Positions 1 to 14,964 of a stretch of DNA of 23,604 nt are shown here, one piece after another. The position numbers and the translations under genes are program-made. The stretch comes from a virus. The notes beneath the pieces were generated by a model. The model searched no databases and had not been told where the DNA came from. It saw only the letters and a program-made list of their open reading frames with translations. How positions within the stretch are numbered: the first letter of the stretch is position 1; each line of letters opens with the position of its first letter. The stretch is from positions 1 through 23,604 of IMG/VR virus record IMGVR_UViG_3300037520_000704, one strand, 5' to 3'.

Positions 1-101
1 GTTAGGTTCCGCCGCGTTCGGTTTGGCTTGGTATCAGGCCAAACAATTCTTGCCACTATTGAGAATCCTCCCCCGGCTGGTCGCTGCCTGCTATGCACTT
101 G

Positions 102-125
102 CGCAAGATCAGCGCCAATCTTGCG
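102..125. promoter_or_regulatory. Inverted repeat upstream of small terminase
   Basis: Two perfect 8-base arms, CGCAAGAT (102-109) and ATCTTGCG (118-125), flank an 8-base spacer. The left arm overlaps a 10-base palindrome, CTTGCGCAAG (98-107). The repeat ends 12 bases before the terminase start. In lambda-type phages the cos site and terminase-binding sites lie just upstream of the small terminase gene, so this could be a terminase-recognition or operator site. That is inference from position; no nicking-site consensus is recognised. Confidence 0.4.
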
Positions 126-137
126 TAGATTTCTTGC

Positions 138-746
138 ATGGATCCACTGAATTGGTCGGCAGCTGCGGCGATTGTCGGGAAATCTCGGCAAGCGGTCTGC
201 GACCTCGTGAAACGGGGGGTATTGACTGATTGCGTGGTGCGCGATCCAAATGGCAGGGCGATCGGCGTCAAGGATGCGGCGTCGTTCACCGAGGAGTACG
301 CGGCCAAGGTCAGGCCTCGCGCTGGTGGCGGTGGCAAGGAGGCCGGCCGTGTAGCCGCCCGTAGCAGGCGCTCAAAGCCGGCTTTGGTCTCAGCAGCTGA
401 GCGCGCTCCACAGCAGCATCGCCCAGCTGATCGTCCGCGCACCACCAATGCCGAGGTGCCGGACTACAACGAAAGCCGAGCAAAGACGGAATACGAAAAG
501 AGCCTGCTGCTGGAGATCGAGCGCCGGCAGAAAGAGGGCCAGTTAGTGGAGCGTGAAAGCGTGGTGAACACTTGGGCCCAGCTGATCAACAGCGCCAAGA
601 CCAAGTTGTTGGGCGTCAGGACAGCGTGCCGCCAGCGCATCCCGCACCTGACCGCAGAGGAAGCGGAGATCATTGATGCCCTGATCAGGGACGCGATGGA
701 AGGGCTGGCGGAGGATGCCGGCTGCCCTGCGCAGGTGCAGCTGTGA
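138..746 (+). CDS. Terminase small subunit, Nu1-like
   Basis: This 202-residue protein is the probable DNA-recognition subunit of the packaging terminase. Residues 5-50 read as a winged-helix-turn-helix module (SAAAAIVGKSRQAVCDLVKRG) of the kind that binds cos DNA in lambda Nu1. A basic, low-complexity linker (about 55-110) leads to a helical region (about 112-185; EYEKSLLLEIERRQKEGQLV) typical of Nu1-family subunits. The stop overlaps the start of the large subunit, which is usual for translationally coupled terminase pairs. There is no strong Shine-Dalgarno before the ATG at 138; the 12 bases before it follow the inverted repeat at 102-125. The role rests on domain pattern and the neighbouring large subunit. 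Confidence 0.85.
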   Translation: MDPLNWSAAAAIVGKSRQAVCDLVKRGVLTDCVVRDPNGRAIGVKDAASFTEEYAAKVRPRAGGGGKEAGRVAARSRRSKPALVSAAERAPQQHRPADRPRTTNAEVPDYNESRAKTEYEKSLLLEIERRQKEGQLVERESVVNTWAQLINSAKTKLLGVRTACRQRIPHLTAEEAEIIDALIRDAMEGLAEDAGCPAQVQL

Positions 747-2623
747 GCGCGATCGATCTGCCGCTGCTGCGGGCCGGTGCGGCGATGTGGCGGCCACCAC
801 GGAAACTCAGGCTGAGCGAGTGGGCCGATGAGTACGCCATGCTCAGCGCCGAGAGCTCGGCGGAGGCCGGCCGCTGGCACTCGTTGCCGTATCAGCGTGC
901 GGTGATGGATGCGTTTACCGATCCAACCGTGGAGATGGTGGTCTGGCAGAAATCGGCGCGGGTGGGCGCCACCAAGATCTTCAACCATGTGATCGGCTAC
1001 CACACGCACCAGGACCCCTGCCCGGTGATGATCGTGCAGCCAACGGTGGAGGACGCCGAGGGCTACAGCAAGGATGAGGTTGCCCCGATGCTGCGCGATA
1101 CGCCTGTATTGCAGCCGCTGATCGTTGACCCGAAACAGAAAGACGGCAGCAACACCATCCTGCTAAAGCAGTTCAAGAACGGCGCCGCGCTGCAGATGGT
1201 GGGGGCCAACAGCGCTAGGGGGTTTCGCCGCGTCAGCCGGCGCATTGTGCTGTTCGATGAGGTGGACGGATATCCGGCCAGCACGCCCGAGGGCGATCAG
1301 ATCAAGCTGGGCATTAAGCGATCGGAGTATTTTTGGAATCGAAAGATTGGGCTGATCAGCACGCCAACCCTGAAAGGGTTTAGCCGAATCGAGAAGTGGT
1401 TTGAGCTGTCGGATCAGCGGCGGTATTTCGTGCCCTGCCCGCACTGTGACCACTACCAGGTGCTGCGGTGGACTCAGATGAAGTGGGAGAAGGATGCCGA
1501 CGGCAACGGGCTACCGGAAACGGCGGCCTACGAATGCGAGAACTGCCAGCAGCTGATCCCGCACAGCAAGAAGCGATGGATGGTGGAGCGGGGTGAGTGG
1601 CGGGCCACAGCGGAAAGCAAGCGTCCTGGGCTGGCGGGATTCCATATCTGGGCGGCCTACAGCTACAGCCCGAACGCCAGCTGGGCCCAGCTGGTTCAGG
1701 AGTTCTTGGAGGTGAAGAGCGACCGCACGCAGCTGCAGACCTTTGTCAACACGCTGCTGGGCGAGACGTTCGAGGATGACTACGCCGCTGCTCTGAGCGC
1801 CACAGGGCTGGCTGCACGCCGCGAGGAATACCCACCGGGGCACTGCCCTGCTGGCGTGTTGCTGCTGACTGCTGGCGTGGACGTGCAGGACAACCGTTTA
1901 GCGGTGAGCGTGTGGGGCTGGGGCGCCGGTGAAGAGGCGTGGCTGGTGTGGCACCAAGAGATCATGGGCGACCCTACGCAGTCCAAGGTATGGGATCAGC
2001 TTGATGCCGTGCTGGACACTGCCTGGCCTGTGGAGGGTGGCGGAGAGCTCAGGCTGGCGCAAGTGGCGATCGACTCAGGCGGCCACGCAACCCATGAGGT
2101 GTACCAGTACGCCAGGGAGCGCCGAGATCGATACGTGGTGGCGATCAAGGGCAGCAGCCGCCGCAGTCAGCAGCCCGTCAACAAGGGGACGCCGCAGGAT
2201 GTGAACTGGAAGGGCAAGACAATTAAGCGCGGCGTGGTGCTGTATCAAGTGGGCACCGACACGGTGAAGACCACGCTGTTTGGCCGGCTGCGGCACAACA
2301 AGCCAGGGCCTGGCTATGTGCACTTCGGCCTATCGGGTGATGACGAATGGTGCAGCCAAGTGACCAGCGAAAAGCAGCAGCTGCGCTACGTGAAGGGATT
2401 CCCGGTGCGCGAATGGGTCAAGAGCCCGAGCGCACGGAATGAGGCGCTGGATTGCATGGTGTACGCCTATGCGGCGCTGCAGCTGGCGTCGAGGCGCTAT
2501 GCGAAGGCGAGCATGTGGGAGAAGCTGGCCGCGCAGCTGCAGGCATCAAGGGATCTGGCGGCGTCAGTAGCCTTAGACCAGCAGCCCGCGCCGCGCCGGG
2601 CCCGATCCTTCAAGGTGATCTAA
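743..2623 (+). CDS. Terminase large subunit, GpA family
   Basis: This 626-residue protein is the ATP-driven DNA-packaging motor and genome-cutting nuclease. The Walker A-like stretch QKSARVGATK (about residues 69-78) closely resembles lambda gpA, and IVLFDEVD (168-175) is the Walker B. Cysteine pairs at about 232/235 (CPHC) and 265/268 (CENC) form a zinc ribbon common in this family. The C-terminal RNase H-like nuclease begins with GVDVQDN (378-384), and a second acidic site, AIDSGG, follows near 444. The start is GTG at 743, overlapping the small-subunit stop (GTGA). An ATG at residue 15 is a weaker alternative. Length is in the usual 600-700 residue range and no breaks are visible. Confidence 0.95.
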   Translation: MSAIDLPLLRAGAAMWRPPRKLRLSEWADEYAMLSAESSAEAGRWHSLPYQRAVMDAFTDPTVEMVVWQKSARVGATKIFNHVIGYHTHQDPCPVMIVQPTVEDAEGYSKDEVAPMLRDTPVLQPLIVDPKQKDGSNTILLKQFKNGAALQMVGANSARGFRRVSRRIVLFDEVDGYPASTPEGDQIKLGIKRSEYFWNRKIGLISTPTLKGFSRIEKWFELSDQRRYFVPCPHCDHYQVLRWTQMKWEKDADGNGLPETAAYECENCQQLIPHSKKRWMVERGEWRATAESKRPGLAGFHIWAAYSYSPNASWAQLVQEFLEVKSDRTQLQTFVNTLLGETFEDDYAAALSATGLAARREEYPPGHCPAGVLLLTAGVDVQDNRLAVSVWGWGAGEEAWLVWHQEIMGDPTQSKVWDQLDAVLDTAWPVEGGGELRLAQVAIDSGGHATHEVYQYARERRDRYVVAIKGSSRRSQQPVNKGTPQDVNWKGKTIKRGVVLYQVGTDTVKTTLFGRLRHNKPGPGYVHFGLSGDDEWCSQVTSEKQQLRYVKGFPVREWVKSPSARNEALDCMVYAYAALQLASRRYAKASMWEKLAAQLQASRDLAASVALDQQPAPRRARSFKVI

Positions 2624-2787
2624 GGCGCGTCAGCAGGCCTTGCGAGGTCAGGTATCGCCCGCAGGCCCGCCTCGATGAAGAACGCCCCCATGGCGGAGAC
2701 GGTGCGACCCTCCGCCTTGGCGCGGGCCCTAAGGGCCTCGACGGTGGGCACCGGCAGAACGACCTGGACCCTGATTCCTTGCGCCAT
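2620..2787 (-). CDS. Small ribbon-helix-helix-like protein, antisense to the late operon
   Basis: The reading frame is open further upstream, but the start MAQG at 2787 gives a clean 55-residue protein. A beta strand (RVQVVLPV) is followed by two helices (TVEALRARAKAEGRTVSAMGAFFIEAGLR), the layout of Arc/CopG ribbon-helix-helix DNA-binding proteins. Its TAG stop (2620-2622) overlaps the TAA of the large terminase, so the two genes are convergent. It has no toxin partner next to it, so it is more likely an orphan regulator than half of a toxin-antitoxin pair. Only an AT-richer stretch (TATACC near 2800 on the minus strand) hints at a promoter. Function is inferred from fold pattern only. Confidence 0.6.
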   Translation of the reverse strand: MAQGIRVQVVLPVPTVEALRARAKAEGRTVSAMGAFFIEAGLRAIPDLARPADAP

Positions 2788-2870
2788 GCTCTGATCGTGG
2801 TATAGTTTGATCCAACAGCAGCCTAGCGGCCGCTGACACCTCGCCCGGTCCAGAACCGGCTTTACCATGC

Positions 2871-3368
2871 TTGAACACTCCTAGCGGCTACTACCTGTCT
2901 CGCCAGTGGCGGCAGCGCAGGCAGCAACGCCTTGAGATCGACGGCCACCAGTGCCAAGGGTGCGGCATCACTGCTGCGCAGTTGGCTGAGCTGGGCTGGC
3001 CTGTGCTTCAGGTTCATCACAAGAACGCTGGCCCACCGAACTACACGTACCCGTCATTCGGCAACGAGCAAATGTCAGACCTGCTGACGCTGTGCTCCGA
3101 GTGCCATGACGGCATCACCAATTCAGTTCGGCGCCAACGATTCAAGCTGGACCCCAAAAAGCAAGTCGATCCGGTTCACATTGCCCCGCCTTCACTTTCT
3201 GTTCCAACAACTTCACGGAGACAAAATGTCCAGCCTTCCTTCTGTTCAGATTCGACTGCAAGGCGTGAGCCCACTGTTGTGCCACAACGGTCAGACCGCC
3301 GATCCGCGAAATACTTACGCGAAGGCGATGAAAGCAGTCAGCAGCAAGCGCAAGAAGACCGACGCTGA
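2871..3368 (+). CDS. HNH endonuclease, short form
   Basis: Residues 10-85 carry a classic HNH/zinc-finger layout: CQGC (28-31), VHH (48-50), then DLLTLCSECH (70-79) with the second cysteine pair and histidine. Such HNH proteins sit beside terminases in many phages, where they assist terminase cleavage, or act as free-standing homing nucleases; the sequence does not decide which. The only in-frame start is TTG at 2871; the nearby ATG at 2867 is in another frame and stops after five codons. After about residue 90 the sequence is low in pattern, and the frame runs 143 bases into the next gene. A lost stop codon or a frameshift at the 3' end is therefore plausible, and the natural protein may end near 3160. 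Confidence 0.75.
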   Translation: MNTPSGYYLSRQWRQRRQQRLEIDGHQCQGCGITAAQLAELGWPVLQVHHKNAGPPNYTYPSFGNEQMSDLLTLCSECHDGITNSVRRQRFKLDPKKQVDPVHIAPPSLSVPTTSRRQNVQPSFCSDSTARREPTVVPQRSDRRSAKYLREGDESSQQQAQEDRR

Positions 3369-3858
3369 TTACGACGAGCTGGCCCGGCTTGAATGGCTTG
3401 CTGGCCTATATCGCATCGACGGCGACTTGGTGATCCCTGATTACGTGATTGAAAGCACGATGATCGGCGGCGCCAAAAAGTCAAAGCGCGGCCCTCAAGC
3501 GAAGTGCGGCCTGTTCTTCACTGAGCACGCTTCACTGCAGTTTGACGGCAAACCTGAGATCATCACCGATGAAACGCTTTCGGAAATGTTTGCCAGTGGC
3601 GACTTCACCCACACGATTGGCGTCAAGGTAGGCATGGCCAAGGTGATGCGCACCCGCCCCGTGTTCCGCAACTGGAACATCACTGCCTTGGCTCAGTACG
3701 ACCCCGACGTGCTCAACATGCGGGACGTTGAAGAGATCGCCATCGACGCCGGCAAGCTGGTGGGGATTGGCGATTGGCGGCCTAAGCATGGCCGGTTTGA
3801 TGCTGAGGTGATACCTGTCGCCGAGCAACTAGATCGACTGCTGGCGGAGGTGGCCTGA
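3226..3858 (+). CDS. Unassigned phage protein; possible RAMP/Cas7-like fold
   Basis: The frame is open from 3106, but the ATG at 3226 has a good ribosome-binding site (GGAG at 3217-3220), giving 210 residues. It opens with a beta-strand and signature VQIRLQGVSPLLCHNG, followed by a Lys/Arg-rich helical insert (about 25-50), a GAKKSKRG loop near residue 85, GVKVGMAKVMRTRPVFRNW (about 135-155) and VGIGDWRPKHGRF near the end. I recognise this as a type of protein found in phage genomes, but I do not know a proven function. The strand pattern and Gly-rich basic loops would suit a nucleic-acid-binding RRM/RAMP-like fold; that is a guess. It ends directly at the repeat array that follows. Confidence 0.7.
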   Translation: MSSLPSVQIRLQGVSPLLCHNGQTADPRNTYAKAMKAVSSKRKKTDADYDELARLEWLAGLYRIDGDLVIPDYVIESTMIGGAKKSKRGPQAKCGLFFTEHASLQFDGKPEIITDETLSEMFASGDFTHTIGVKVGMAKVMRTRPVFRNWNITALAQYDPDVLNMRDVEEIAIDAGKLVGIGDWRPKHGRFDAEVIPVAEQLDRLLAEVA

Positions 3859-3974
3859 TGCGCTGGCATCCGGTGACGGTGTAAGTCCCAGCAAGGCCTG
3901 GCGGGGTTCGGTCAGGCGGAGCCCGGCATGGTCAGGTCAGGCAGGGCGAGGCATGGCGCGGCAAGGGCTGCGAT

Positions 3975-4010
3975 GGCAGCACGGAGGGCCTACGGGCCTT
4001 CCCTGCCGCC
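3975..4010 (+). other. Array hairpin 1 (UACG tetraloop)
   Basis: The outer stem GGCAGCA/TGCCGCC has one A-C mismatch. It is followed by a C-C mismatch, an 8-bp inner stem GGAGGGCC/GGCCTTCC with one G-T wobble, and the loop TACG closed by C-G. C(UACG)G belongs to the exceptionally stable UNCG tetraloops in RNA, which favours function as RNA on the plus strand. The 3' arm CCGCC (4006-4010) can instead pair with GGCGG at 4017-4021. Confidence 0.75.
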
Positions 4011-4101
4011 TTCATTGGCGGATGAGGCGCGGCGAGGCCTGGCTAGGTCAGGCGGGGCGATGTCAAGCTCGGCAGGGCTGGGCATGGTGTGGGCCACAGA
4101 C

Positions 4102-4133
4102 GGTGGCACGGAGGCTCCGGCCTCCCTGCCACC
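4102..4133 (+). other. Array hairpin 2 (UCCG tetraloop)
   Basis: A perfect 7-bp outer stem GGTGGCA/TGCCACC, a C-C mismatch, a 6-bp inner stem GGAGGC/GCCTCC and loop TCCG closed by C-G. The architecture is that of hairpin 1 with changed but still paired bases. The 3' arm CCACCC (4129-4134) can instead pair with GGGTGG at 4142-4147. Confidence 0.8.
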
Positions 4134-4227
4134 CTCACAAGGGGTGGGCAAGGCCAGGCGCAGCGGGGTACGTTGTGGCGGGGCGAGCCCATGCGAGGCA
4201 TGGCCGGGCCTGGCAAGGGCTGCAGAC

Positions 4228-4263
4228 AGCAGCACGGAGCTTCTGCGGAGGCTCCCTGCTGCT
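4228..4263 (+). other. Array hairpin 3 (UGCG tetraloop)
   Basis: Outer stem AGCAGCA/TGCTGCT (7 bp), C-C mismatch, inner 8-bp stem GGAGCTTC/GAGGCTCC with one wobble, loop TGCG closed by C-G. Compared with hairpins 1 and 2, outer-stem positions vary in a compensated way. The 3' side CTGCTCTC (4259-4266) can instead pair with GAGGGCAG (4271-4278) across a TTTT loop. Confidence 0.8.
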
Positions 4264-4354
4264 CTCTTTTGAGGGCAGACGCGGCACCCTGGGGCGCGGC
4301 TGGGCGATGCTAGGCCAGGCATGGCGTGGCAGGGACTGGCGTGGCAAGGCGAGG

Positions 4355-4369
4355 GCCGCTTCCGGCGGC
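4355..4369 (+). other. Array hairpin 4 (reduced copy)
   Basis: GCCGC/GCGGC with a 5-base loop TTCCG. It lacks the C-C mismatch and the outer stem of the other three, but it starts 127 bases after hairpin 3, keeping the spacing. It could be a shortened last unit of the array or an unrelated small stem. Confidence 0.5.
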
Positions 4370-4374
4370 AAGGC

Positions 4375-4396
4375 AAGGCGGGGCAACCCGCCTTTT
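4375..4396 (+). terminator. Intrinsic terminator ending the repeat array
   Basis: A GC-rich stem GGCGGG/CCCGCC (extended to 8 bp by AA/TT) with a GCAA (GNRA) tetraloop is followed at once by TTTT. This is a textbook Rho-independent terminator on the plus strand. It would separate transcripts of the terminase region and array from the head genes beginning at 4450, which then need their own promoter or read-through. Confidence 0.8.
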
Positions 4397-4449
4397 CCTG
4401 TTCTCCCTAGTCTTGAGTCAGGATCTAGACAGGCTGCCGACACTGATCA

Positions 4450-5013
4450 ATGACCCAGCCGCTGCAGATCTACCAAGGCGATCAGGTCACCTGGCTTGAG
4501 CCTGCGCCTGATGACGCTACGGCCGTGGTCGCATGGCTCCGCGCCGCTGCAGCCGGCGCCGGCGTCGAGGCCCCGGCGACGCTGACGGATGACGGCTGGC
4601 GCGTCACGCTGACCACGGCCACCACCGCTGCGATGGCATCGGGCGACTGGACTGTGCAGGTGGTGGCCACGGTTGACGGCGTGCCGCACACTCTGCGCCG
4701 CGGCAGCCTGACCGTCCGCAAGACTTTGGCCTTCAGCGGAACGTCTGGCGCGTTCGACGATCGCAGTCAGGCCGAGAAAGATTTGGCTGCTGCCGAGGAA
4801 GCCATTCGGGCCTTGGTCGGTGGTGCGGTTGAGTATCAGATCGGCAGCCTCGGCTCCGGCGGCAGGAAAGTTCGCCGGGTGGACCTGCCCGATCTAATCA
4901 TGTGGCGCGACCGCCTCAAGGCCGAGGTCGCCCGTGAGAAACGCGCCGAGATGATCGCGCAAGGCCTCGGCGATCCGCGCCGGCTCTATGTGCGGTTTCA
5001 GGGGGTGAGCTGA
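4450..5013 (+). CDS. gpW-like head-completion protein with N-terminal beta domain
   Basis: The 187-residue protein has two parts. The C-terminal region (about 105-187: AEKDLAAAEEAIRALVGGAVEY, then VRRVDLPDLIMWRDRLKAEV) has the helix-strand-helix order and motif of lambda gpW, the small protein joining the filled head to the tail. Residues 1-95 form an Ala/Thr-rich beta-sandwich-like domain (DGWRVTLTT, WTVQVVATVDG, RRGSLTVRKT) resembling phage immunoglobulin-like or tail-decoration domains. Canonical gpW is under 70 residues, so this is a fusion. It overlaps the portal start by one base (TGATG), matching the lambda gene order terminase-W-portal. The gpW assignment is by pattern and position. 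Confidence 0.7.
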   Translation: MTQPLQIYQGDQVTWLEPAPDDATAVVAWLRAAAAGAGVEAPATLTDDGWRVTLTTATTAAMASGDWTVQVVATVDGVPHTLRRGSLTVRKTLAFSGTSGAFDDRSQAEKDLAAAEEAIRALVGGAVEYQIGSLGSGGRKVRRVDLPDLIMWRDRLKAEVAREKRAEMIAQGLGDPRRLYVRFQGVS

Positions 5014-6545
5014 TGGGTGTTCGATCCTGGCTGCAGCGGCAGATCCTGACCACCCGGCACGGCCGGCAGCAGGGCCAGCGGATGTTTGAGGGCGCCCGGC
5101 GTAACCGGCTGCTCCACGACTTGGTGGCGCCAACCACCTCCGCCGATGCCGAGCTGCGCGTCAGCCTGGCGGTGCTGCGCGACCGCTGCCATCAGCTGGT
5201 CAGGGACAACCCCTATGCCCGCCAGGCCAAGCGGACCACGCAGATCAACGTGGTCGGCCCTCGCGGGATCCAGATGCAGGGGCAGGTGATGCGCCCTAAC
5301 GGCACGGAAAAGGACGTGCGCCGGAATCGGCTGCTGGAGGAAGCATGGCGCCGCTGGTGCCGACCGGATACCTGCGACGTGGCGGGCCGGCTGTCGTTCC
5401 ACGGCTTTGAGATGATGATCGCAGGCAGCCTGCCGGAGTCGGGCGAGTGCCTGATCAGGATCGTGCGGCAGCCGATGGGGCAGGGCCGCACCCCGCTGGC
5501 GCTGGAGCTGATCGAGGCGCACCAGCTCGATGAGGACAAGAGCGGGGTATCAGATCGCGCTGGCCACGAATGGCGGCTGGGCGTCGAGATCAACGAATGG
5601 GGCCGCCCCACCCGGTACGCCATCCTGACCCGCCACCCTGGTGATGTGGAGCTCGGCCTGAACCGCCGTGGCGTAGAGCGGAAGCACGTCCTAGTGCCGG
5701 CGGCGGACATGATCCATGTGTTCCTGCCGGAGCGGATCGGGCAGAACCGGGGCGTGCCGTGGCTGGCGTCGGTGATCACAACTGTCCATGGGCTTTCTGA
5801 ATACGAAAAGGCTCACCTGGTACGGAAGCGCGTCCAAGCGGCAGCTCTGGGATGGATCCGCACCCCAGACGGTGAGTTGCAGGGTGATGAGGTCCAGAAC
5901 GGCCAGCAGCTGTTCAACACTGAGCCCGGCAGCTGGAACATCCTCGACCCCGGCCAGGAACCGGTACCGCCGAACTTCGGACCTGACGACGGCCAGTACA
6001 GTCATGTAGTAAAGAACCTTACGAGGCGGTTTGCGGCTGGGTTTGGGTGTAGTTACGCGACCATTAGCAAGGATTTCAGCGACACGAACTACAGCAGCAT
6101 GCGCACCAGCGTGCTGGAGGATCGCGACCACTGGCGGGTAGTGCAGAGCGCAATCATTGAGGTGTTCCACCAGCGCGTATTTGAAGAGTGGCTACGCGCT
6201 GCAATGCTGGCGGGTGAGTTGCCGTCGCCAGCTTTTAATGACTATTGGACCAGGCCAGAAAGGTATAACGCTCCACGCTGGCAGGCTAGATCATGGGACT
6301 GGGTGGACCCAGTTAAGGATGTTTCCGCCATGGAAAAAGCCAAGGCGATGCTATTGAAATCTCACAGCGAGCTGATAACTGAATACAGCGGCGAGCAGTT
6401 TGAGCAGGTGATGGCGCAAATCGCCATGGAAAACGAGCTGAAAGAATCACTGGGCCTGATGCCCACCGTGGAGCAACCGCCTGAGCCCGTGGTGCAACCG
6501 CCTGAGCCGGAAGAGGACGACGACGCCCCAGAAGATGTAGAATAG
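5013..6545 (+). CDS. Portal protein, lambda gpB family
   Basis: This 510-residue protein forms the dodecameric ring through which DNA enters and leaves the head. The N-terminal region (about 60-100: RDRCHQLVRDNPYARQAKRTTQINVVGPRGIQ) and the central LIEAHQLD and HVFLPERIGQNRGVPWLASVI segments (about 165-255) are characteristic of lambda-type portals. So are the later SYATISKDFSDTNYSSMRTS block (about 345-365) and WVDPVKDVSAMEKA (about 430). The tail is acidic and Pro-rich (PEPEEDDDAPEDVE). The ATG at 5013 overlaps the upstream stop. Length is normal and no interruption is seen. Lambda fuses or overlaps its portal with the gpC protease; here an HNH gene follows instead. Confidence 0.93.
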   Translation: MGVRSWLQRQILTTRHGRQQGQRMFEGARRNRLLHDLVAPTTSADAELRVSLAVLRDRCHQLVRDNPYARQAKRTTQINVVGPRGIQMQGQVMRPNGTEKDVRRNRLLEEAWRRWCRPDTCDVAGRLSFHGFEMMIAGSLPESGECLIRIVRQPMGQGRTPLALELIEAHQLDEDKSGVSDRAGHEWRLGVEINEWGRPTRYAILTRHPGDVELGLNRRGVERKHVLVPAADMIHVFLPERIGQNRGVPWLASVITTVHGLSEYEKAHLVRKRVQAAALGWIRTPDGELQGDEVQNGQQLFNTEPGSWNILDPGQEPVPPNFGPDDGQYSHVVKNLTRRFAAGFGCSYATISKDFSDTNYSSMRTSVLEDRDHWRVVQSAIIEVFHQRVFEEWLRAAMLAGELPSPAFNDYWTRPERYNAPRWQARSWDWVDPVKDVSAMEKAKAMLLKSHSELITEYSGEQFEQVMAQIAMENELKESLGLMPTVEQPPEPVVQPPEPEEDDDAPEDVE

Positions 6546-6603
6546 GTGTGCCCCGGCGCTGTGTCACCAGCCCGAGGCGTGACCAACCTGAAAGGACAGG
6601 CCG

Positions 6604-7389
6604 ATGGCATCAGTATCGCAGAGCAGCCGTCAGAAGCGTCGACCGTGGACAGCGCAAGACCAAGTAACCGCCGAAGTCATGGCGGCGTGTGGCATAAAAT
6701 GCAAGGCGATTGCTCGGTATATGGGCCGATCAGACGGCACCATTTCAGCGCACCTAATCCAAGGTGAAACAGAAAAAATCTTTGAGCGCAACAAGCGATA
6801 CTATTACGACAATTTACATGAAGAGCGCCAACGAAGGCGCCGCTACTATCAATCGAACATCAAGATTGAACGCGAACGCGCTCGGCTCCGTTACAGAGCC
6901 AATCCTGAAATAGAGCGAGAAAGAACCCGTCGATGGCAAAGAGAAAATCCAGAAAAAGCATTTGAGCTTCGGCGCCGCGTGTATCAGAACAATCCTGGAG
7001 CTGCTCGGGAAAAGTGCCGTCGGCGTCGCGAATGGAGGAGGTCATCCCGCCGCGCCGCCCTCCACCCCGTCACCCGCGCTCAAATCGACGCTCGCTTCGC
7101 CATCTGGGACAACCGCTGCGCATTCTGTGGAGTGGATGCCAGCCACGAACGAAACCACGGCCGCGAACGCCTCACGGTTGAACACGTGTTGGCCCTGACC
7201 AAGGGCGGGCTTGACGAGGCGAGCAACATCATTCCCGCCTGCACCGCTTGCAACTCCAGCAAGCACAACTCACCGGTTGAGGATTGGTACCGGCAGCAAC
7301 CGTGGTTCACAGAGGCTCGCTGGCGCAAGATCCAGCGCCATTGCCCCGCCGCCGTGGTGGGCCAACTACCTCTGGCGCTGGCGGCGTAG
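6604..7389 (+). CDS. HNH endonuclease inserted between portal and capsid genes
   Basis: The 261-residue protein has an N-terminal helix-turn-helix-like segment (about 20-52: AEVMAACGIKCKAIARYMG). A highly basic region (about 60-150) follows, built of roughly 20-residue repeats with the pattern Arg-rich helix plus NPE/NP. The C-terminal HNH domain has CAFC (172-175), LTVEHVLALTKGG (190-202), N208 and PACTACNSSKHN (211-222), a complete HNH/zinc site. A ribosome-binding site AAAGGAC precedes the ATG. Its position between two essential head genes, with its own start and spacer, fits a free-standing homing nuclease that has inserted in the operon. The Arg repeats probably contact DNA; this is inference. 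Confidence 0.88.
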   Translation: MASVSQSSRQKRRPWTAQDQVTAEVMAACGIKCKAIARYMGRSDGTISAHLIQGETEKIFERNKRYYYDNLHEERQRRRRYYQSNIKIERERARLRYRANPEIERERTRRWQRENPEKAFELRRRVYQNNPGAAREKCRRRREWRRSSRRAALHPVTRAQIDARFAIWDNRCAFCGVDASHERNHGRERLTVEHVLALTKGGLDEASNIIPACTACNSSKHNSPVEDWYRQQPWFTEARWRKIQRHCPAAVVGQLPLALAA

Positions 7390-7424
7390 GCCGTCTTTAA
7401 CCTGAGACCAGCGACTATCCGGCT

Positions 7425-9413
7425 TTGGATCTCACGAAACTCAAAGGCCCCCAGCGGCGAGAGCTGCCGATGGGTCTCCAGATTGAAGAGAAAACGGATG
7501 AGACCCTCACCTTTTCGTTTTCCAGTGAACAGCCAGTAGATCGCTGGTTTGGCCGCGAGATCCTAGTGCACGAGGAAGGCACCATGGACCTCTCGCGCCT
7601 GAACGACGGCGCACCATGGCTCTGGGGGCATGACCCTAACAAGGTCCTGGGAGTCGTTGAAAAGGCCTGGCTCGGCGACGATCGCCGGCTCTACAGCACG
7701 GTGCGGTGGTCGCCCAACACCACTGAGCGCGGAACTGAGGAGTTCCGTCGCCGCGTCGATATTGAAGCCGGCATTACGAAAAACGTCTCGTTCGCCTACA
7801 GCATTGACGACATCGAAGAGCGCAGCGGCGACTTTTACGTGACTAGCTGGAAGGCCCTGGAAGTCTCCAGCGTCAGCGTCCCCGCCGATCAGACCGTAGG
7901 CCTGGGCCGCGCCATGGATGAGCCGGCGGCTGAGCCTGAGCCTGCTGCTGAGCCCACCCCGGAGCCCTCCGCACCGGCAGAGCCGACCGTGACGGCTCAC
8001 GATGAGGCAATCAAGGCAGCCGTTAGTCAGGCCCTCCATAGCCTGACAGCACAGACCGCCGAGCGGACTGACACCCCTGTTCAGACTCTCATGACCACTG
8101 AAACGATCAACGTGGAGGAGGTGGCGCAATCCGCTCGCATTGCTGAGCGTGAGCGCGTCGCGTCCATCAAATCAATGTGCGACCAGTTCCAGCTTTCCGA
8201 GCTGGCCGAGAAACTCATCAATGACGACGCTTCCATCGACGCCGCCCGTGCGGTGGTGATGGAACAGATCGGCATGCGCAAGGTTTCCTTTGAGGGCCGC
8301 GTGCACGATGCCGGCGGCGCTGAGCTTGGCCTGAGCAAGCGTGAAGTGAAGCGCTACAGCTTCCTGCGCGTCGCTCAGTATTTGGCCGACCCCAACCCCC
8401 GTACCGCTGAGGCCGCCGGCTTTGAGCTGGAGGTGGCCCGTGCCGCCCAGGCCAAGCACAGCCGCTCTGCCAACGGCGTGCTGATCCCCTGGGAAGTGCT
8501 GGGCTCCAGCCGCGCTGCTGAGACCCCCGGCCAGGTGGTCGGCACCTTCGGCGATGGCGGCGCACTGGTCGGCACCGATCGGCTCGATGCGCAGTTCATT
8601 GACCTGATCCGCACCCGCAGCGCCTTCCTGAACAGCGGCCTCACCATGCTCTCCGGCCTGGAGGGCAACGTTGAGATTCCCAAGAAGCTCAGCTCCAGCC
8701 AGTATTACTTTGTCGGCGAGAATGCTGGGGTTGCCAACAGCAAGCTCACCTTCGGCCTGGTGAACATGATCCCCCGGACCATCGGCGTTCGCGTGCCGAT
8801 CAGCCGCCGGATGATGATCCAGAGCTCCCCTGACGTGGAGAACCTGGTACGGATCGACATGGCCGAGTCTGTCGCTTTGGGCATGGATTACACCATCGGT
8901 TATGGCACCGGCTCCAACGGTCAGCCGCTGGGCATCATCAACACCACCGGCATCGGCAGCGTGACCTTGGGCGGCGGCACTGCCAAGGCATTCCCTGTGA
9001 GCCTCGGCGGCGACGGCTCCACCACTCACAACTGCGGCGACTGGGCCGACTACGTGGACCTGGAAACCGAACTGGCGATCGACAATCTTGACGCCGGCTC
9101 AATGCGCTACATCGGCAACAGCGTGGTGCGCGGCGCCCTGAAGCAGACCCTGAGGGCATCCTCGGCTGGTTCTGACTACATCATGACCGATGCCGGCACT
9201 GTGAACGGCTACCAGTTCACCGTGTCCAACCAGATGCAGCTGAACGATGTTCTGTTCGGCAACTTTGCCGATTGCGTGGTGGGCATGTGGAGCGGCCTGG
9301 ATGTGGTGGTTGACCCCTACACCCAGAGCGCCAGCGGCCAGGTAATCCTGACCGTGCATCAGGACTTCGACGTGGCGGTTCGCCGCCCGCAGTCCTTCGC
9401 TCTGGGCACCTGA
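7425..9413 (+). CDS. Fused prohead protease and HK97-type major capsid protein
   Basis: Residues 1-165 are an HK97-type (U35/S78-like) prohead protease: RRELPMGLQIE strand, LWGHDPNKVLG with the likely catalytic His, NVSFAYSI with the likely Ser, and VSSVSVPADQTVG. A Pro/Glu/Ala linker (about 166-190) and a helical scaffold-like delta region (about 195-300) lead to an HK97-fold capsid protein (about 305-662). Landmarks there are the LVGTDRLDAQFIDLIRTRSAFL segment, IPRTIGVRVPISRRM, MDYTIGYGTGSNGQPLGI and the C-terminal DFDVAVRRPQSFAL. The start given is TTG at 7425, which includes the typical RRELP N-terminus; the ATG at 7470 is an alternative. Self-processing of such fusions releases mature capsid subunits. 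Confidence 0.93.
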   Translation: MDLTKLKGPQRRELPMGLQIEEKTDETLTFSFSSEQPVDRWFGREILVHEEGTMDLSRLNDGAPWLWGHDPNKVLGVVEKAWLGDDRRLYSTVRWSPNTTERGTEEFRRRVDIEAGITKNVSFAYSIDDIEERSGDFYVTSWKALEVSSVSVPADQTVGLGRAMDEPAAEPEPAAEPTPEPSAPAEPTVTAHDEAIKAAVSQALHSLTAQTAERTDTPVQTLMTTETINVEEVAQSARIAERERVASIKSMCDQFQLSELAEKLINDDASIDAARAVVMEQIGMRKVSFEGRVHDAGGAELGLSKREVKRYSFLRVAQYLADPNPRTAEAAGFELEVARAAQAKHSRSANGVLIPWEVLGSSRAAETPGQVVGTFGDGGALVGTDRLDAQFIDLIRTRSAFLNSGLTMLSGLEGNVEIPKKLSSSQYYFVGENAGVANSKLTFGLVNMIPRTIGVRVPISRRMMIQSSPDVENLVRIDMAESVALGMDYTIGYGTGSNGQPLGIINTTGIGSVTLGGGTAKAFPVSLGGDGSTTHNCGDWADYVDLETELAIDNLDAGSMRYIGNSVVRGALKQTLRASSAGSDYIMTDAGTVNGYQFTVSNQMQLNDVLFGNFADCVVGMWSGLDVVVDPYTQSASGQVILTVHQDFDVAVRRPQSFALGT

Positions 9414-9415
9414 TT

Positions 9416-9637
9416 ATGAGGCTGCAGATTCTCTCGAACTGCAGAGCAGACGGTCGCCACCTCGCTATGGGTGAGGTGGCTGACCTTCCTCAAGGCCCAG
9501 CCAACGAGCTGCTGGCGCTGGGCATGGCGTCAATTGCGCCAGAGCCCGAACTTGAGCCCGCCCCGGCCTGTCCACCCAAGCCGCGGCGCTCTGCAAAGAC
9601 TTCCACCCCTGACCCCACCCCCACCCCGGAGGATTGA
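9416..9637 (+). CDS. Small proline-rich head protein, unassigned
   Basis: This 73-residue protein has a short folded N-terminus (MRLQILSN, MGEVADLPQGPANELLALGMA) and a Pro/Glu-rich, probably disordered tail. The first half resembles short proteins that often follow HK97-type capsid genes and carry a KGGKVVDLPEGEANALIAAGKA-like strand-helix pattern. It starts three bases after the capsid stop. A role in head completion or decoration is inferred from position only. Confidence 0.65.
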   Translation: MRLQILSNCRADGRHLAMGEVADLPQGPANELLALGMASIAPEPELEPAPACPPKPRRSAKTSTPDPTPTPED

Positions 9638-9640
9638 TCC

Positions 9641-10021
9641 ATGGCCATTGAACTCAGAAACCTGGAGCAACTCCAGACCTTCAACATCCGCACTCCCGCG
9701 ACCCTCAGCTCCAACAGCGACACCACCGGCGTCGATCTGTCGGGCATCGATGGTGACGCCCTGTTCATCCTGAGCGCCGGCACCAGTTCGACGGGAACCA
9801 TCAACGCCAAGCTGCAGCACTCGCTGACCGTCGGCGGCACTTATGAAGACGTGCCCAACGGCGCGTTCGCTCAGCTGACCGCTACTGCCAGCACCCAGAA
9901 AGTGGCGGTTGCCCGCGAGGAACTGCGCCCCTTCCTGCGCATCAACTTCTCCGGCCTGGCATCCTCCTACTCGGCTGCCGTGAGCTGTGTGGCAGTCGGC
10001 GGCGCCCGTTACGCGGTCTGA
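9641..10021 (+). CDS. Probable virion structural protein (decoration or head-completion)
   Basis: The 126-residue protein is preceded by a good ribosome-binding site (GGAGGATTGATCC before the ATG at 9641). It is beta-rich with Gly/Ser/Thr content and a repeating pattern of short strands (VDLSGIDGDALFILSAG, INAKLQHSLTVGGTYEDVP, PFLRINFSGL). The AKLQHS...GTYEDV and LRINFSG motifs are common in small phage structural proteins lying between capsid and tail-joining genes. I cannot assign a specific function. Its place between the capsid and the FII-like protein suggests a surface or head-vertex role. Confidence 0.65.
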   Translation: MAIELRNLEQLQTFNIRTPATLSSNSDTTGVDLSGIDGDALFILSAGTSSTGTINAKLQHSLTVGGTYEDVPNGAFAQLTATASTQKVAVAREELRPFLRINFSGLASSYSAAVSCVAVGGARYAV

Positions 10022-10023
10022 CC

Positions 10024-10383
10024 ATGATCCAGGAAATCCCCGATGATTTCCTGCTGGCTGACTTCGGCTCCAGCGTCACTGCTGGGGCCGTTGTTGGTTT
10101 GGGGTTTATGGACCGCGCTAGCCAGATCATTATGAATGACAACGTGGTGACGGTGGACTATGCGCTGACTGCCAGGACTGATCAGTTCGGCGGTTTGCAG
10201 TATGGCGACCAGGTGCAGCACGAAGGGCAGACATACAGGCTGCAGCATGAGCCGCTACGGCTAGCTGATGGCCGGTTCTGCGTGATGGTGCTGGAGATGG
10301 TGGAGGCAGCTGTCACGTACCTCACCACGCTGAGCGGCCTGCGGATCACGACCCTGAATAACAAGCAACTCCGCATTCTGTAG
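10024..10383 (+). CDS. Head-tail joining protein, lambda FII-like
   Basis: The 119-residue protein has the length and pattern of lambda gpFII-type attachment proteins: DDFLLADFGSSVTAG near the N-terminus, then a small beta barrel ending in GLQYGDQVQHEGQTYRLQHE and RFCVMVLE. Such proteins bind the gpW-closed portal and create the tail-docking site. The gene starts three bases after its neighbour, so it is co-transcribed. The last 25 residues (AVTYLTTLSGLRITTLNNKQ) extend past the usual domain. Assignment rests on pattern and on the presence of gpW and a lambda portal upstream. Confidence 0.65.
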   Translation: MIQEIPDDFLLADFGSSVTAGAVVGLGFMDRASQIIMNDNVVTVDYALTARTDQFGGLQYGDQVQHEGQTYRLQHEPLRLADGRFCVMVLEMVEAAVTYLTTLSGLRITTLNNKQLRIL

Positions 10384-10385
10384 GC

Positions 10386-11801
10386 ATGGCTGAAACCACG
10401 ATCACAGGCCTGCCGAACGCCACGACCCCGCTCGATGGAACCGAGCGGGTGCCGATGGATCAGAACGGCGCCACGGTGGACGCCAGCACCCAGGCGATCG
10501 CGAATCTGGCGGCTGGCGCGATCAGCAGTGCTGTGGCTGCCCACGTAGCAGCTGCAGACCCGCATCCTGGCTACCTGACCGCCGCCGAGGGTGACGCGGC
10601 CTATGTGGGGTTGAGCGACGCCCGGCTGAGCGACGCCCGCGAATGGACCGCTGCCACAATCGAGCAGGCTGAGGCCGAGACCGGCACCGCGACGACCCGA
10701 CGGGCGTTTACCGCGCAACGGGTGCGGCAGGCCATCGCGGCATGGTGGACCAGCGCCAGCAGCGTGGCAGGCCGCGCCATGGTGGAGGCCCTTGACGCGG
10801 CCGCACAGCGCACGCTGCTGGGCCTGGGCACGGCTGACAGCCCATCATTCACCGGCCTGACGATCACCGGCACGGCGCCGGTCGTCATCCCCCACATCCA
10901 CGGCAGCATCGCCGGCAATTTTTACGTTCACGTCAAAAACACCAGCGGCGGCCCGCTAGCAGCGGGCACGGCGGTCTATGCGACCGGCAGCGTGGGCGAC
11001 ACCGATCGGATCACAGTGGCGGCCTGCGACCCGACCGATCCGCTCAAAATGCCGGCGATCGCCGTGCTGGAGACCACCCTTGCCAACAACGACCCCGGCG
11101 ATGCCGTGATCTTGGGCGAGCTGAGGCCGTTCAATTCCAATAGCTATCAGCTGGGCGATCAGCTCTATGTCGGCGCTGGTGGCGCCATGGTGGCGACGAT
11201 CCCGGCATCTGGCGAGGTGCAGCAGGTCGGCAGCGTAGTGAGGGTGAACGTCAACACCGGGACCATCCTGGTGAACACCGGCGCGGCGATGGCCCGGGTG
11301 GGATTCACGGGGGCCTATGGCGATCTAAGCGGGCGCCCTGCCATTCCCTCCCCCGCCGACGCCGCCCCGCAGCCGCTGGCGGCCACTGCAGCCATCGGCA
11401 GCAGCGCAGACTACGCCAGGGAGGATCACGCCCACCAGCGCGATTCCGATGTAATCGTGATTCCTGTTGGCGACGAGACCACCGCGCTCACCACCGGCAC
11501 CAACCGGGTGAGATTCAGGATGCCGTTTGCTGCCACGCTGCTGGCGGTGCGGGCCAATGTGAACACAGCGCCGACCGGCAGCACGCTGATCGTGGACGTG
11601 AACGAGGCAGGCGCCAGCGTGCTGGGCACGAAACTCAGCATCGACGCCAGCGAGTTCAGTAGCACCACAGCAGCTAGCGCCGCGACGATCACCGATTCCA
11701 GCCTGGCGGACGACGCCGAGATCAGCATCGATATTGACCAGATCGGTTCAACGGTGGCCGGTGCGGGCCTGAAGGTCTCGCTGTTCGTGCGGAGGGCATG
11801 A
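10386..11801 (+). CDS. Fibre-like virion protein
   Basis: The 471-residue protein begins with ITGLPNATTPLDGTERVPMDQNG, a strand pattern seen at the N-terminus of many phage fibres. DPHPGYLTAAEGDAAYV (about 60-76) follows, a motif shared by head or tail fibre shafts. Next come short repeats (SDARLSDAREW), a GTADSPSFTGLTITG segment of the kind that precedes trimeric fibre heads, and a long Thr/Ala/Gly-rich beta region. A second segment (YGDLSGRPAIPSPADAAPQPL) introduces a C-terminal beta domain (about 355-471). Its stop overlaps the next start (ATGA). It probably forms an adsorption fibre; whether it attaches to head or tail cannot be read here. Confidence 0.75.
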   Translation: MAETTITGLPNATTPLDGTERVPMDQNGATVDASTQAIANLAAGAISSAVAAHVAAADPHPGYLTAAEGDAAYVGLSDARLSDAREWTAATIEQAEAETGTATTRRAFTAQRVRQAIAAWWTSASSVAGRAMVEALDAAAQRTLLGLGTADSPSFTGLTITGTAPVVIPHIHGSIAGNFYVHVKNTSGGPLAAGTAVYATGSVGDTDRITVAACDPTDPLKMPAIAVLETTLANNDPGDAVILGELRPFNSNSYQLGDQLYVGAGGAMVATIPASGEVQQVGSVVRVNVNTGTILVNTGAAMARVGFTGAYGDLSGRPAIPSPADAAPQPLAATAAIGSSADYAREDHAHQRDSDVIVIPVGDETTALTTGTNRVRFRMPFAATLLAVRANVNTAPTGSTLIVDVNEAGASVLGTKLSIDASEFSSTTAASAATITDSSLADDAEISIDIDQIGSTVAGAGLKVSLFVRRA

Positions 11802-12331
11802 TGGCCAACCTGGTGATCTGGAACAGCCAGACCAACGAGATCCGCGATTACCCACGCGGCGACGATGAGCCGGTCGTGGGGCTGGAGCAGCCGCCGCTTT
11901 TCGCGCTGCAGGTGGTGCGGGAGCCTCAGCCTGAGTACGACCCTGCCACGCAGCGCCTGTCAGAAACTCGCGCTGTGAACCCTGAGGCGCTGACCTGGAT
12001 CTGGGGCTGGGACGTTCAGGATCTGCCGCCGCCGCCCCCGCCGGAGCCGAACTATCGGTCGTTCTATGACGCCCTGCTGGCCAGCCAGGTGTATGGCGCC
12101 GTGGTGGCCACGCCGGGGAAAAGTGGCGATCAGGCCGCCGCGATGACGGTGTTTCTCGGCGCGATCCAGGACTCCCTCAGTGGCCGCGAAAACCGCCCTG
12201 CACTGCAGCAGGCAGTCTGGCTGCTGCTGGGCCAGCTCCAGTTGAGCGCCGAGGGGCTGGCTGAGCTGCTGGCGCTGATGGATGAGCACCGCCTGTCGGG
12301 CGTTTACTCGCTGTCGCCGGGGGTGAGCTGA
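11798..12331 (+). CDS. Fibre-associated protein, possible assembly chaperone
   Basis: The 177-residue protein has an N-terminal beta region (NLVIWNSQTNEIRDYPR, FALQVVREPQPEYDP) and a WIWGWDV segment. A PPPPPPEP linker near residue 83 is followed by a helical C-terminal half (YRSFYDALLASQVY ... LLALMDEHRL). Small proteins with such a strand domain, Pro linker and helical tail often follow fibre genes, sometimes as assembly factors. I do not recognise a named family. It overlaps both neighbours (ATGA at 11798, shared base at 12331), indicating tight coupling within the fibre block. Confidence 0.6.
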   Translation: MMANLVIWNSQTNEIRDYPRGDDEPVVGLEQPPLFALQVVREPQPEYDPATQRLSETRAVNPEALTWIWGWDVQDLPPPPPPEPNYRSFYDALLASQVYGAVVATPGKSGDQAAAMTVFLGAIQDSLSGRENRPALQQAVWLLLGQLQLSAEGLAELLALMDEHRLSGVYSLSPGVS

Positions 12332-13164
12332 TGGCGATTATCTGGGTTGGAACGGGGAGGTTTAGCGCCTACATCGGCCCTGTTCAGGATTACATCGACC
12401 GGGTGGTGGCTGCTGATGTAGCAGCGGGCAACACGCTGGGCCTAGAGGTTGGCGTGCGTGACGCCTACGACGTGTTCATCCGCGACTCAATCAACGTCGG
12501 CGACCTGGGCACCAGCGGCGGCGTGCTGAGCCAAGCCAACAGCATCATCAAGGCCGCGCCGATCATGGCCGGCGCCCGCACGCTGGCCGGTGCGCTGACG
12601 CCGTTGGTGGGGACGGCGCCGACACGGTTTGGCACGGCTGGCGGGTGGAATTACAACCGAAAGACGGGGTTACAGGCGAATGGGACCAATAACTATTTAG
12701 ATAGCAATAGGAGTAATAGCGCTGACCCACAAAATAGCAAGCATGTCGCAGTATTCACCTCCGAACCGGAAACACGCAATGCCACTAGAGCTGCGATTGC
12801 CTCGCGAAGCCCCAGCGGAGCCGTTGGATCAACGCATATTCTAACAACCGCCAGCGTAGTGGTTGCGCGCATAAACACCTCAGGCACGTCAAGTACGGCA
12901 AACGCTACACCATTTACAGGGCTATTTGGTGGGTCTAGATCTAGCGACACTCAATGCACTGTAAGGTTTAGCGGAGCAAGTACAACGATCAACGAAAGCA
13001 GCTCCGCCCCGGCAGCGGTTCCTATTGATGTTTTCTCTAGGAACGGCGGCGATTTCTCCAACGCCCGCTTCGCCTTCTACTCCATCGGCGAATCCCTCAA
13101 CCTCGCCCTGCTGGATACCCGCATCACCGCCCTAATCAACGCCTTCGCGGCTGCTATCCCATGA
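12331..13164 (+). CDS. Concanavalin/LamG-like virion protein, probable receptor-binding
   Basis: In this 277-residue protein the N-terminal 80 residues are helical. They are followed by a probable jelly-roll lectin domain: GGWNYNRKTGLQANGTNNYLDSN (about 108-130), HVAVFTSEP, then alternating strands, and a C-terminal strand-helix FAFYSIGESLNLALLDTRI. The YNRKTGL.ANGT..YLDSN and FYSIGESL motifs are seen in phage fibre or tail-tip proteins with concanavalin-like folds. Bases from about 12,640 to 13,060 are noticeably AT-richer than their surroundings, so the lectin domain may have been acquired or be evolving fast. It would bind a host surface glycan; this is inference. Confidence 0.7.
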   Translation: MAIIWVGTGRFSAYIGPVQDYIDRVVAADVAAGNTLGLEVGVRDAYDVFIRDSINVGDLGTSGGVLSQANSIIKAAPIMAGARTLAGALTPLVGTAPTRFGTAGGWNYNRKTGLQANGTNNYLDSNRSNSADPQNSKHVAVFTSEPETRNATRAAIASRSPSGAVGSTHILTTASVVVARINTSGTSSTANATPFTGLFGGSRSSDTQCTVRFSGASTTINESSSAPAAVPIDVFSRNGGDFSNARFAFYSIGESLNLALLDTRITALINAFAAAIP

Positions 13165-13234
13165 CCCATGTAATGAGCTATAGCAAGCCAACCCCATTTT
13201 CCACTGCCTCTACGAAGTGCGCGGAGGTGTTGCG

Positions 13235-13426
13235 ATGAGTTGGATAACTACAGGAAAATCTGATGCTGCGATGCCCAATTTCAGCAGCCTGACATTCTCC
13301 GGCCCGTTCCTACTGCCCCGTGATGGCTGGGACATCGGCACTGCGGGACAGTCTCCTTACGGCGTCGGCATCAAAAACGTGGGCGTTGATGAGCCCATTC
13401 ACGATCTCTCTGGGAGCATCATGTAA
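13235..13426 (+). CDS. Small protein before the lectin-type gene, unassigned
   Basis: The frame opens earlier, but ATG at 13235 has a strong ribosome-binding site (GGAGGTG six bases upstream), giving 63 residues. The sequence is short and beta-like, with PNFSSLTFSGPFLLPRDGWDIGTAG and a Gly/Val stretch. It has no signal peptide or membrane segment. Its stop shares a base with the next start at 13426, so it is translationally coupled to the C-type-lectin gene. It may be a small partner of that protein. Function unknown. Confidence 0.6.
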   Translation: MSWITTGKSDAAMPNFSSLTFSGPFLLPRDGWDIGTAGQSPYGVGIKNVGVDEPIHDLSGSIM

Positions 13427-14952
13427 TGACAATCTCACCACTTCTCAAGGTTAAAGAACGCATCGTCGGCCCCTCTGGGATCTACAACATCCAAAATGAA
13501 TGGTACGGCTACGCCGACGAGTTCAGATACACGATTGGCCTGGCTGGTCTGATGGGGTTCGGCGTGGGCTGCTGCCCACCTGAGCTGCTGCCGGATGACA
13601 TGGCGCCAATGCCAGGCACAGAGGATCGCTTCAGCCCCAACTACGGCACCTATGTCCACATCCCGAGCGCCTCGATCATGTGCTTCCTGCCGAAGCACTT
13701 TATTGATGTTCAGGGCGGCGCTGATACTAACGCCCCGACTTATGGACAGCCAATTGTCATCAGCAATAGCCAGACGGGCAACGCGGTGCTGGCACGAGCT
13801 TTTAGGGACGGCGGTAGCGAACTGGCTGGCGTGTTCATTGACAAGTACCACCCGAGTAATTGCCGCCCTGACGGCTCTGGGCTGCCAAATCGCGCTGACG
13901 CTTCGCCTGGCGGCTATCCAGATAGCGGTGGAGTGGCTGCTTCTAGACCCCTTCATTGGCCTGTATCGGCGAACTTGAGCGGCATCCTTAGGAGCCCGTT
14001 CAGCCTGTGCAATAGCACCGTGCTAAATCCTGCGGCCACCACGCCAGCAAACAATCTTGGCGGCTGCTGGGCATTGGCACGAAGCCGTGGCGCAGATTTC
14101 AACCCCGTGCCGATTTGGGTGTATTCGCAGTTGGCGTATCTGAGCCTCGCCCATGCACAGGCTTTGTTAGGCACCGACGGCCTGCCCATCAGTGGTGCGA
14201 CCAGTAATGCTGCATGGATGGATGTTGCGCCTTATGCGCCTAAGGGCAACAACAATAACAACTGCGCTGACGTCAACAAAACCTCGCTGCGGTTTGATCG
14301 CACTGACATTACAGGCAACGTCAACAGTGGTCGTGCTGGCGAAAACCACCGCGCCTTCACTGGTGCCGCGTGGATTGGCAGTGTGTCAACCCCTGCGCTC
14401 GCAGACACAACACACAACGGACAGCTCAGTGGCATTGTTGACCTCAATGGCAACCATTGGGAATGCGCTCCGGGGCTGACCAATATTGGAGGCAATAACG
14501 CTGGATATCGAATGTTGGCGGATTCAGTGGGCTGGAATACTATCAACAGCAATGCCAACATTTCATCAGCAAGCACAGTAAGCCTGATTGCAAATGTCAG
14601 TGACAACGGAGTTTGGTGGACCGATGCCAATACATGGATTTACATGATCCCGGCGGTTGGCGGAACGTACCACCCGGCCAGCTCGTGGAGCGGTGAGGCA
14701 ACTAGGCAAGCAATGACCGAGTGCTTGCTGCCCCGTGAATCAGGAACCAGTACGACGCAGACGAGCACCAACCACTTTGGAGGTGATGGCCTGTTCCGGC
14801 GTCATCTAAACGACCTGCTGCCTCTTGCCGGTGGTCACTGGGGCGCCGGCGCCGCCGCAGGGATGTTTACAGTCTTTCTGAGCACCACCTCCGGCACCAG
14901 CGGCGGCTTCGTCTTCAGCGGTGCCCGTTGCCTGCGCCTTCTGTCCGCGTGA
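13426..14952 (+). CDS. C-type-lectin-like tail protein, candidate diversity-generating retroelement target
   Basis: This 508-residue protein has the layout of phage variable receptor-binding proteins. Middle landmarks include PVPIWVYSQLAYLSLAHAQA, then WMDVAPYAPKGNNNN (a PKGNN motif usual in this fold) and VDLNGNHWECAPGL (the GN-WE motif). The C-terminus has GGDGLF followed by LAGGHWGAGAAAGMFTVFLS and GARCL in the last 45 residues. The GG-W--G--AG-F pattern with a terminal G-RC matches variable regions of DGR proteins such as Mtd. Codons 14881-14931 are 17 consecutive codons ending in C or T, as expected if AAC/AAT codons in a template were mutated. Two tetraloop hairpins follow the gene. No template repeat or reverse transcriptase is in the window, so the DGR link is inferred. 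Confidence 0.72.
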   Translation: MTISPLLKVKERIVGPSGIYNIQNEWYGYADEFRYTIGLAGLMGFGVGCCPPELLPDDMAPMPGTEDRFSPNYGTYVHIPSASIMCFLPKHFIDVQGGADTNAPTYGQPIVISNSQTGNAVLARAFRDGGSELAGVFIDKYHPSNCRPDGSGLPNRADASPGGYPDSGGVAASRPLHWPVSANLSGILRSPFSLCNSTVLNPAATTPANNLGGCWALARSRGADFNPVPIWVYSQLAYLSLAHAQALLGTDGLPISGATSNAAWMDVAPYAPKGNNNNNCADVNKTSLRFDRTDITGNVNSGRAGENHRAFTGAAWIGSVSTPALADTTHNGQLSGIVDLNGNHWECAPGLTNIGGNNAGYRMLADSVGWNTINSNANISSASTVSLIANVSDNGVWWTDANTWIYMIPAVGGTYHPASSWSGEATRQAMTECLLPRESGTSTTQTSTNHFGGDGLFRRHLNDLLPLAGGHWGAGAAAGMFTVFLSTTSGTSGGFVFSGARCLRLLSA

Positions 14953-14959
14953 GCGGACA
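14942..14959 (+). other. Tetraloop hairpin spanning the stop codon
   Basis: A perfect 7-bp stem TGTCCGC/GCGGACA encloses GTGA. The TGA in the loop is the stop codon of the lectin-type gene. Stem-loops at the end of the variable region are required for target recognition in the Bordetella phage retroelement. Confidence 0.65.
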
Positions 14960-14964
14960 TGCTC

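Follow-up and report, generated by a model that had tools for sequence, protein, structure and literature searches.

Background

What does a phage gain from a gene-sized stretch of five-base repeats and hairpins? The window analysed here, a 23,604-nucleotide stretch of viral DNA from a cyanophage genome, holds such an array in a gap at 3859-4449, for which a preliminary description had proposed a structured phage RNA. Viral Interference Programmable Repeat (VIPR) systems, first reported in a 2026 preprint (PMC13142463; bioRxiv 2026.04.26.720920), offer a point of comparison, being presented there as RNA-guided weapons that phages use against each other. According to that preprint, VIPR comprises a RAMP protein, Vipr, and vrRNAs with 9-16 YNNGG repeats and a structured tail, reads DNA through the NN dinucleotides with one base skipped, occurs in seven published types, and is proposed to be older than CRISPR effectors (PMC13142463).

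Results

Repeat tracts and hairpins form composite units

The gap is built of GGC/GGT-NN pentamers in four tracts, each followed by a hairpin, with an intrinsic terminator after the last one (Table 1). At 13-14 pentamers per tract, with GGY conserved and NN hypervariable, the tracts lie within the 9-16 YNNGG repeats that define vrRNAs. GGYNNGGY occurs 33 times in 3895-4352 vs 3.6 times on average in shuffles (at most 10 in 1000 shuffles), and no other 458-nt stretch of the contig has more than five; the excess is confined to period 5 among the periods compared, and the array folds better than its dinucleotide shuffles (z -4.6). In hairpins 1-3 the conserved cores begin at 3978, 4105, and 4231, which puts them 127 and 126 bases apart; they share GCACGGAG...YUCCCUGC, a C-C mismatch, and loops of the UNCG class.

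These three hairpins of one plan, with their mismatch and the loops UACG, UCCG, and UGCG, had been described correctly beforehand, as had the GNRA-loop terminator (GCAA). The proposed series of four hairpins 126-127 bases apart holds for the three cores, while the fourth hairpin (about 4356-4369) has a different plan and is probably a reduced tail. The pentamer repeats are likewise far above chance, but the tracts between hairpins are part of the unit and not filler: the hairpins are half of the feature, each closing, as a 3' tail, a unit that begins with a run of GGY-NN pentamers.

Table 1 Features of the cassette in the window, in order of position
Feature	Position	Strand	Basis
Ribbon-helix-helix (RHH, CopG-like) gene, antisense, cassette 5' edge	2620-2868	-	Pfam RHH_5 E 3.8e-10; position conserved
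HNH nuclease-like gene, candidate accessory (Vap) gene	2871-3368	+	PHROG HNH E 2e-10; conserved upstream of Vipr
Vipr homologue P210, 210 aa, Cas7-like RAMP protein, phrog_4652	3226-3858	+	Homology and structure model
Conserved leader CUGG(G)CAUCC-loop-GGUGUAAGUCC(C)AG, hairpin	3862-3893	+	Motif count in relatives
Guide tract 1: CT GG TC CA GG CC AT CA CA AG GA AT GC (AA)	3895-3964	+	GGY scaffold, variable NN
vrRNA tail 1, loop UACG	3965-4021	+	Tail alignment and covariation
Guide tract 2: GC GA CT TA CA GG GA CA TC AG TG AT (GT)	4026-4090	+	GGY scaffold, variable NN
vrRNA tail 2, loop UCCG	4091-4147	+	Tail alignment and covariation
Guide tract 3: AA CA GC GG AC GT GG GA CA GA AT CG CT (AA)	4147-4216	+	GGY scaffold, variable NN
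vrRNA tail 3, loop UGCG	4217-4278	+	Tail alignment and covariation
Guide tract 4: AC GG GC TG GA TA CA AT GT AG CT GT AA GA	4283-4352	+	Read by eye
Short hairpin GCCGC-UUCC-GGCGGC after tract 4, other plan	4353-4369	+	Sequence, inference
Intrinsic terminator GGCGGG-GCAA-CCCGCC-UUUU, closes array	4377-4396	+	Sequence

The tails belong to a covarying RNA family

Scanning IMG/VR for the core recovered numerous phage contigs, each carrying one to five units, and the exact unit pattern was absent from 84,980 prokaryote species genomes, so that at this stringency the units do not form a host repeat family. A blastn search of the array against phage records gave no match, as expected if the guides are hypervariable. 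In Rfam, the window had no match above the gathering threshold and the sub-threshold matches were implausible; the earlier remark that no named RNA family has this plan is true for Rfam, but the class does have a published name, the vrRNAs of VIPR systems (PMC13142463).

Among 76 distinct homologous tails, the pairing H1 + core + H3 is formed in 98.2% of cells. Its covariation score is 0.50, compared with 0.25 for shuffles (0/500) and no more than 0.15 when partners are slid. The pairing supplies the structured 3' tail of a vrRNA and carries the covariation first noticed within one locus far beyond it; the window's fourth unit departs from the plan. The long hairpin of the preliminary description is paired in 97.6% and scores 0.47. 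Its 7-bp outer stem thus covaries, but it is only one of two pairings that both covary and yet share strands, and hence exclude each other, making possible either an RNA switch or a single dominant fold. In the tail alignment (A6), columns 12-16, 22-26, 53-56, and 70-72 are four mutually complementary strands that allow two outer hairpins or one long one. Across this alignment, UUCG-like and GCAA/GUAA tetraloops replace each other, a sign of selection on RNA, and loop lengths shift by one or two bases while the stems stay paired. With covarying stems, interchanging UNCG/GNRA tetraloops, and no conserved reading frame, the gap is very probably the structured phage RNA array that had been suggested.

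Ahead of the arrays lies a leader whose TGTAAGNCC motif was found in 48 of 52 loci and, in the DNA compared, almost solely in that place. The leader hairpin carries an invariant GGUGUAAG in the window and in relatives, and may serve in processing or regulation.

The adjoining gene encodes a Vipr homologue

P210 falls in phrog_4652, a family of unknown function, and had no match in PADLOC. AlphaFold models reached pLDDT 82 and, for the window's own protein, 91; the PDB matches listed for them include Cas7-like RAMP subunits of CRISPR effector complexes (Csm, type VII, and type IV), the best with E 1.9e-5 and TM about 0.4-0.5. As in RAMP proteins, a glycine-rich loop (GLGDWRPxxGRF) lies ahead of the last strand. 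A protein of Escherichia phage SUSP1 (KT454805.2) that adjoins pentamer arrays is 32% identical to P210 (E 3e-34), and from its place and context we infer it to be the published Vipr (PMC13142463). Judged by sequence and modelled fold, P210 is the predicted partner protein of the array, a RAMP homologue of the kind that characterises VIPR, where Vipr has an RRM core and a G-loop.

When relatives were collected with the P210 protein alone (71 loci at least 70% identical), recognisable tails lay downstream in 69; the two others comprise a locus with just 164 bases downstream (L107) and one with pentamers only (L153). More distant homologues with adjoining GGY-NN arrays occur in Gordonia, Mycobacterium, Pseudomonas, and Escherichia phages and in contig L165, and a same-strand pentamer block exceeded all 20 shuffles in 85/88 distant loci (opposite strand, 2/88). 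In the actinophage VIPR loci of MakoManhole and LittleE (L086:2970-3145, L087:4200-4400), the tails resemble tRNA acceptor/T-arm minihelices with GTTCGANTC loops. L165, another kind of phage, has at 2464-3690, amid tail genes, an HNH-Vipr cassette that also comprises GGY pentamers, an RHH-like frame in antisense orientation, and a UUCG terminator.

The cassette lies at different places in different phages, and one Vipr clade is linked to an HNH gene

Ahead of the array, relatives carry the HNH gene, P210, and, in most of them, the antisense RHH gene, a possible regulator, at the cassette's 5' edge. P210 is 70-98% identical among relatives, and the surrounding TerL often only 38-60%. Insertion sites vary: some relatives have the cassette between terL and the gene for head-tail joining, L031 has it ahead of terL, and L026 has it away from packaging genes; the cultured relatives S-LBS1, S-CBS1, and S-CBS3 have no cassette at the corresponding place. 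The window has a second HNH endonuclease gene, unrelated to the cassette, at 6604-7389 between the portal and capsid genes. From 15262 to 23604 the window's GC content falls from about 60% to about 37% and its genes are T4-like (gp21 protease, gp23 capsid); an independent 28-kb contig (G009) is 99.99% identical to window 1-15261 and ends exactly there, and 15262-23604 is a probable assembly chimera.

Across 105 Vipr loci, 87 have a vap1-like gene (phrog_5926) downstream and 17 an HNH gene upstream, with none having both and one neither. The HNH-linked Viprs form one clade (support 100/96) of cyanophages, L165, two Methylobacterium genomes, and one Acidobacteriota MAG, with the HNH gene upstream of Vipr in 17/17 of its loci examined, and the HNH core is retained in 42 full-length copies, with D replacing N (one copy read by eye). 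This linkage and retention suggest that the HNH protein is a functional partner of Vipr.

Some guides of relatives match other phages when one base is skipped

In relatives, 103 distinct tracts were parsed, with GGY conserved and NN hypervariable; together with the window's fourth tract, read by eye, they gave 90 guides long enough to test. Against 2.0 Mb of cyanophage DNA with arrays masked, and allowing at most two mismatches in 22 bases, 8/90 guides matched with a one-base skip (one with no mismatch, four with one, three with two), none matched with a skip of 0 or 2, and guides with shuffled dinucleotide order matched in 1 of 1080 cases at the one-base skip. A skip of 3 is confounded, since unmasked arrays match themselves.

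Guide 3 of L031 agrees at 27 of its first 28 NN bases with terL of the Synechococcus phages S-CBS3 and S-CBS1 and also matches several IMG/VR phages, with no comparable match within its own locus. The target codons are LLKGWVNKRAAEAW, and the skips fall on the wobble position, where the targets differ from one another. At the 3' end of terL, guides of L053 and L121 match the same site, so the eight matches are not all independent. Other guides match S-CBS3 gp02 (L064) and a 474-aa reading frame (L068), in our reading a further terminase large subunit. With one mismatch in 22 bases, guide 1 of L026 matches a stretch of G009 without a clear gene; because G009 is nearly identical to the window's first part, phages of this kind appear from these sequences to be both carriers and targets.

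For the window's own four guides, the cyanophage DNA, IMG/VR, and related phage records searched gave no confident target. Exact nine-dinucleotide scans of IMG/VR with guides 4, 3, and 1 returned 1, 3, and 0 loci; the loci for guides 4 and 3 were judged chance, as their flanking dinucleotides do not match, and guide 1 had no match in 40 related phage records with three mismatches allowed. The target matches of the relatives' guides point to one-base-skip DNA recognition in the clade, natural sequences thereby backing the code separately from the preprint authors' data.

Discussion

Weighing the explanations

We hold with high confidence that the locus is a phage-borne VIPR cassette with a guide-RNA array, because of the identity to the SUSP1 protein and the Cas7-like fold, the tails beside nearly all close homologues and their covariation, the pentamer blocks beside distant ones and the GGY/NN pattern of the tracts, and the excess of one-base-skip matches over shuffled guides, with terL targets in which the skips fall on the wobble phase. 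Weighing against it are the small share of guides with a clear target (8/90), some of them non-independent, the failure of the window's four guides to find a confident target in the DNA searched, the position of one of the best matches, that in G009, outside any clear gene, and a tie to the published Vipr that runs through place and context. A homing cassette, spread by a free-standing HNH endonuclease with the pentamer and hairpin DNA as by-product or recombination tail, would account for the HNH gene and for genes still 70-98% identical at positions that vary between phages; it leaves unexplained the Cas7-like protein, the GGY arrays of HNH-less loci, the covarying RNA stems, and the one-base-skip matches, and we regard it as very unlikely.

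A structured RNA acting in cis, or as a scaffold, on the phage's own packaging and head genes draws on the many relatives whose cassette has terL on one side and the head-tail joining and portal genes on the other. Since other relatives have it before terL or away from packaging genes, and their decodable guides match other phages and, in the case checked, not their own record, this is a highly improbable account, and the regulator of packaging or head gene expression offered in the preliminary description, taken as one of the phage's own genes, is not supported. Translation of the gap into an Arg/Gly/Ala-rich protein is barely credible: stop-free plus-strand frames do reach 166 aa, one of them overlapping the next start codon, but the five-base period runs through all frames, unit spacing varies freely across loci, and stems keep their pairing through loop-length changes of one or two bases. 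A protein-coding gap was rejected on the period and the free spacing.

On the VIPR reading, transcription of the region would yield about four vrRNAs, each roughly 125 nt long and made of a 5' GGY-NN pentamer tract with a folded 3' tail. Vipr would coat the pentamers and display the NN dinucleotides, which would pair with double-stranded DNA in the pattern NNxNNxNN, passing over one base at each step, a pairing shown for other VIPRs (PMC13142463). The complex would then silence rival-phage genes, above all that for the terminase large subunit, silencing being carried over from the preprint (PMC13142463), and the HNH partner might, by conjecture, cut them. An undescribed nuclease-armed phage VIPR type, in which Vipr recruits the HNH protein to cut competitors' terminase gene, is a tentative idea that we think somewhat less probable than its negation. 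If true, VIPR would here destroy rival phage genomes beyond silencing them, a departure from the preprint, according to which it is the nuclease-encoding types that are enriched in host defence islands (PMC13142463).

Comparison with known systems

The locus extends the range of VIPR to phages of Synechococcus type and suggests a use, blocking the packaging-motor gene of rivals; guide decoding can map conflicts among uncultivated phages, and the HNH-linked clade offers a candidate RNA-guided nuclease that is small and would use a gapped code. Like free-standing phage HNH homing endonucleases, the HNH protein is small and its insertion site variable; unlike them, it is paired with Vipr and an array throughout the clade. 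With class 1 CRISPR-Cas effectors of the Cas7 family (Csm3 of type III-A, type VII Cas7), the cassette shares the fold, the glycine-rich loop, and a presumed coating of the guide RNA, but it has one small protein and neither a cas operon nor a CRISPR array, and its guide is read as dinucleotides, whereas a CRISPR spacer is contiguous. At the locus there are no spacers between identical repeats and no adjoining cas genes.

The closest counterpart is the VIPR of SUSP1, with which the cassette shares a RAMP protein of about 20 kDa adjoining GGY-NN tracts with structured 3' tails, carriage by a phage, targets in competing phages, a one-base-skip code, and skips at wobble positions. It differs in having an HNH gene upstream, where SUSP1-type loci have vap1 downstream, in its tail fold, which in the SUSP1 clade is a pseudoknot (PMC13142463), and in its conserved leader, antisense RHH gene, and occurrence in cyanophages. 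Set against the main text of the preprint (PMC13142463), what is new here is an HNH-linked, phage-borne cyanophage clade of VIPR with a tail fold and leader of its own.
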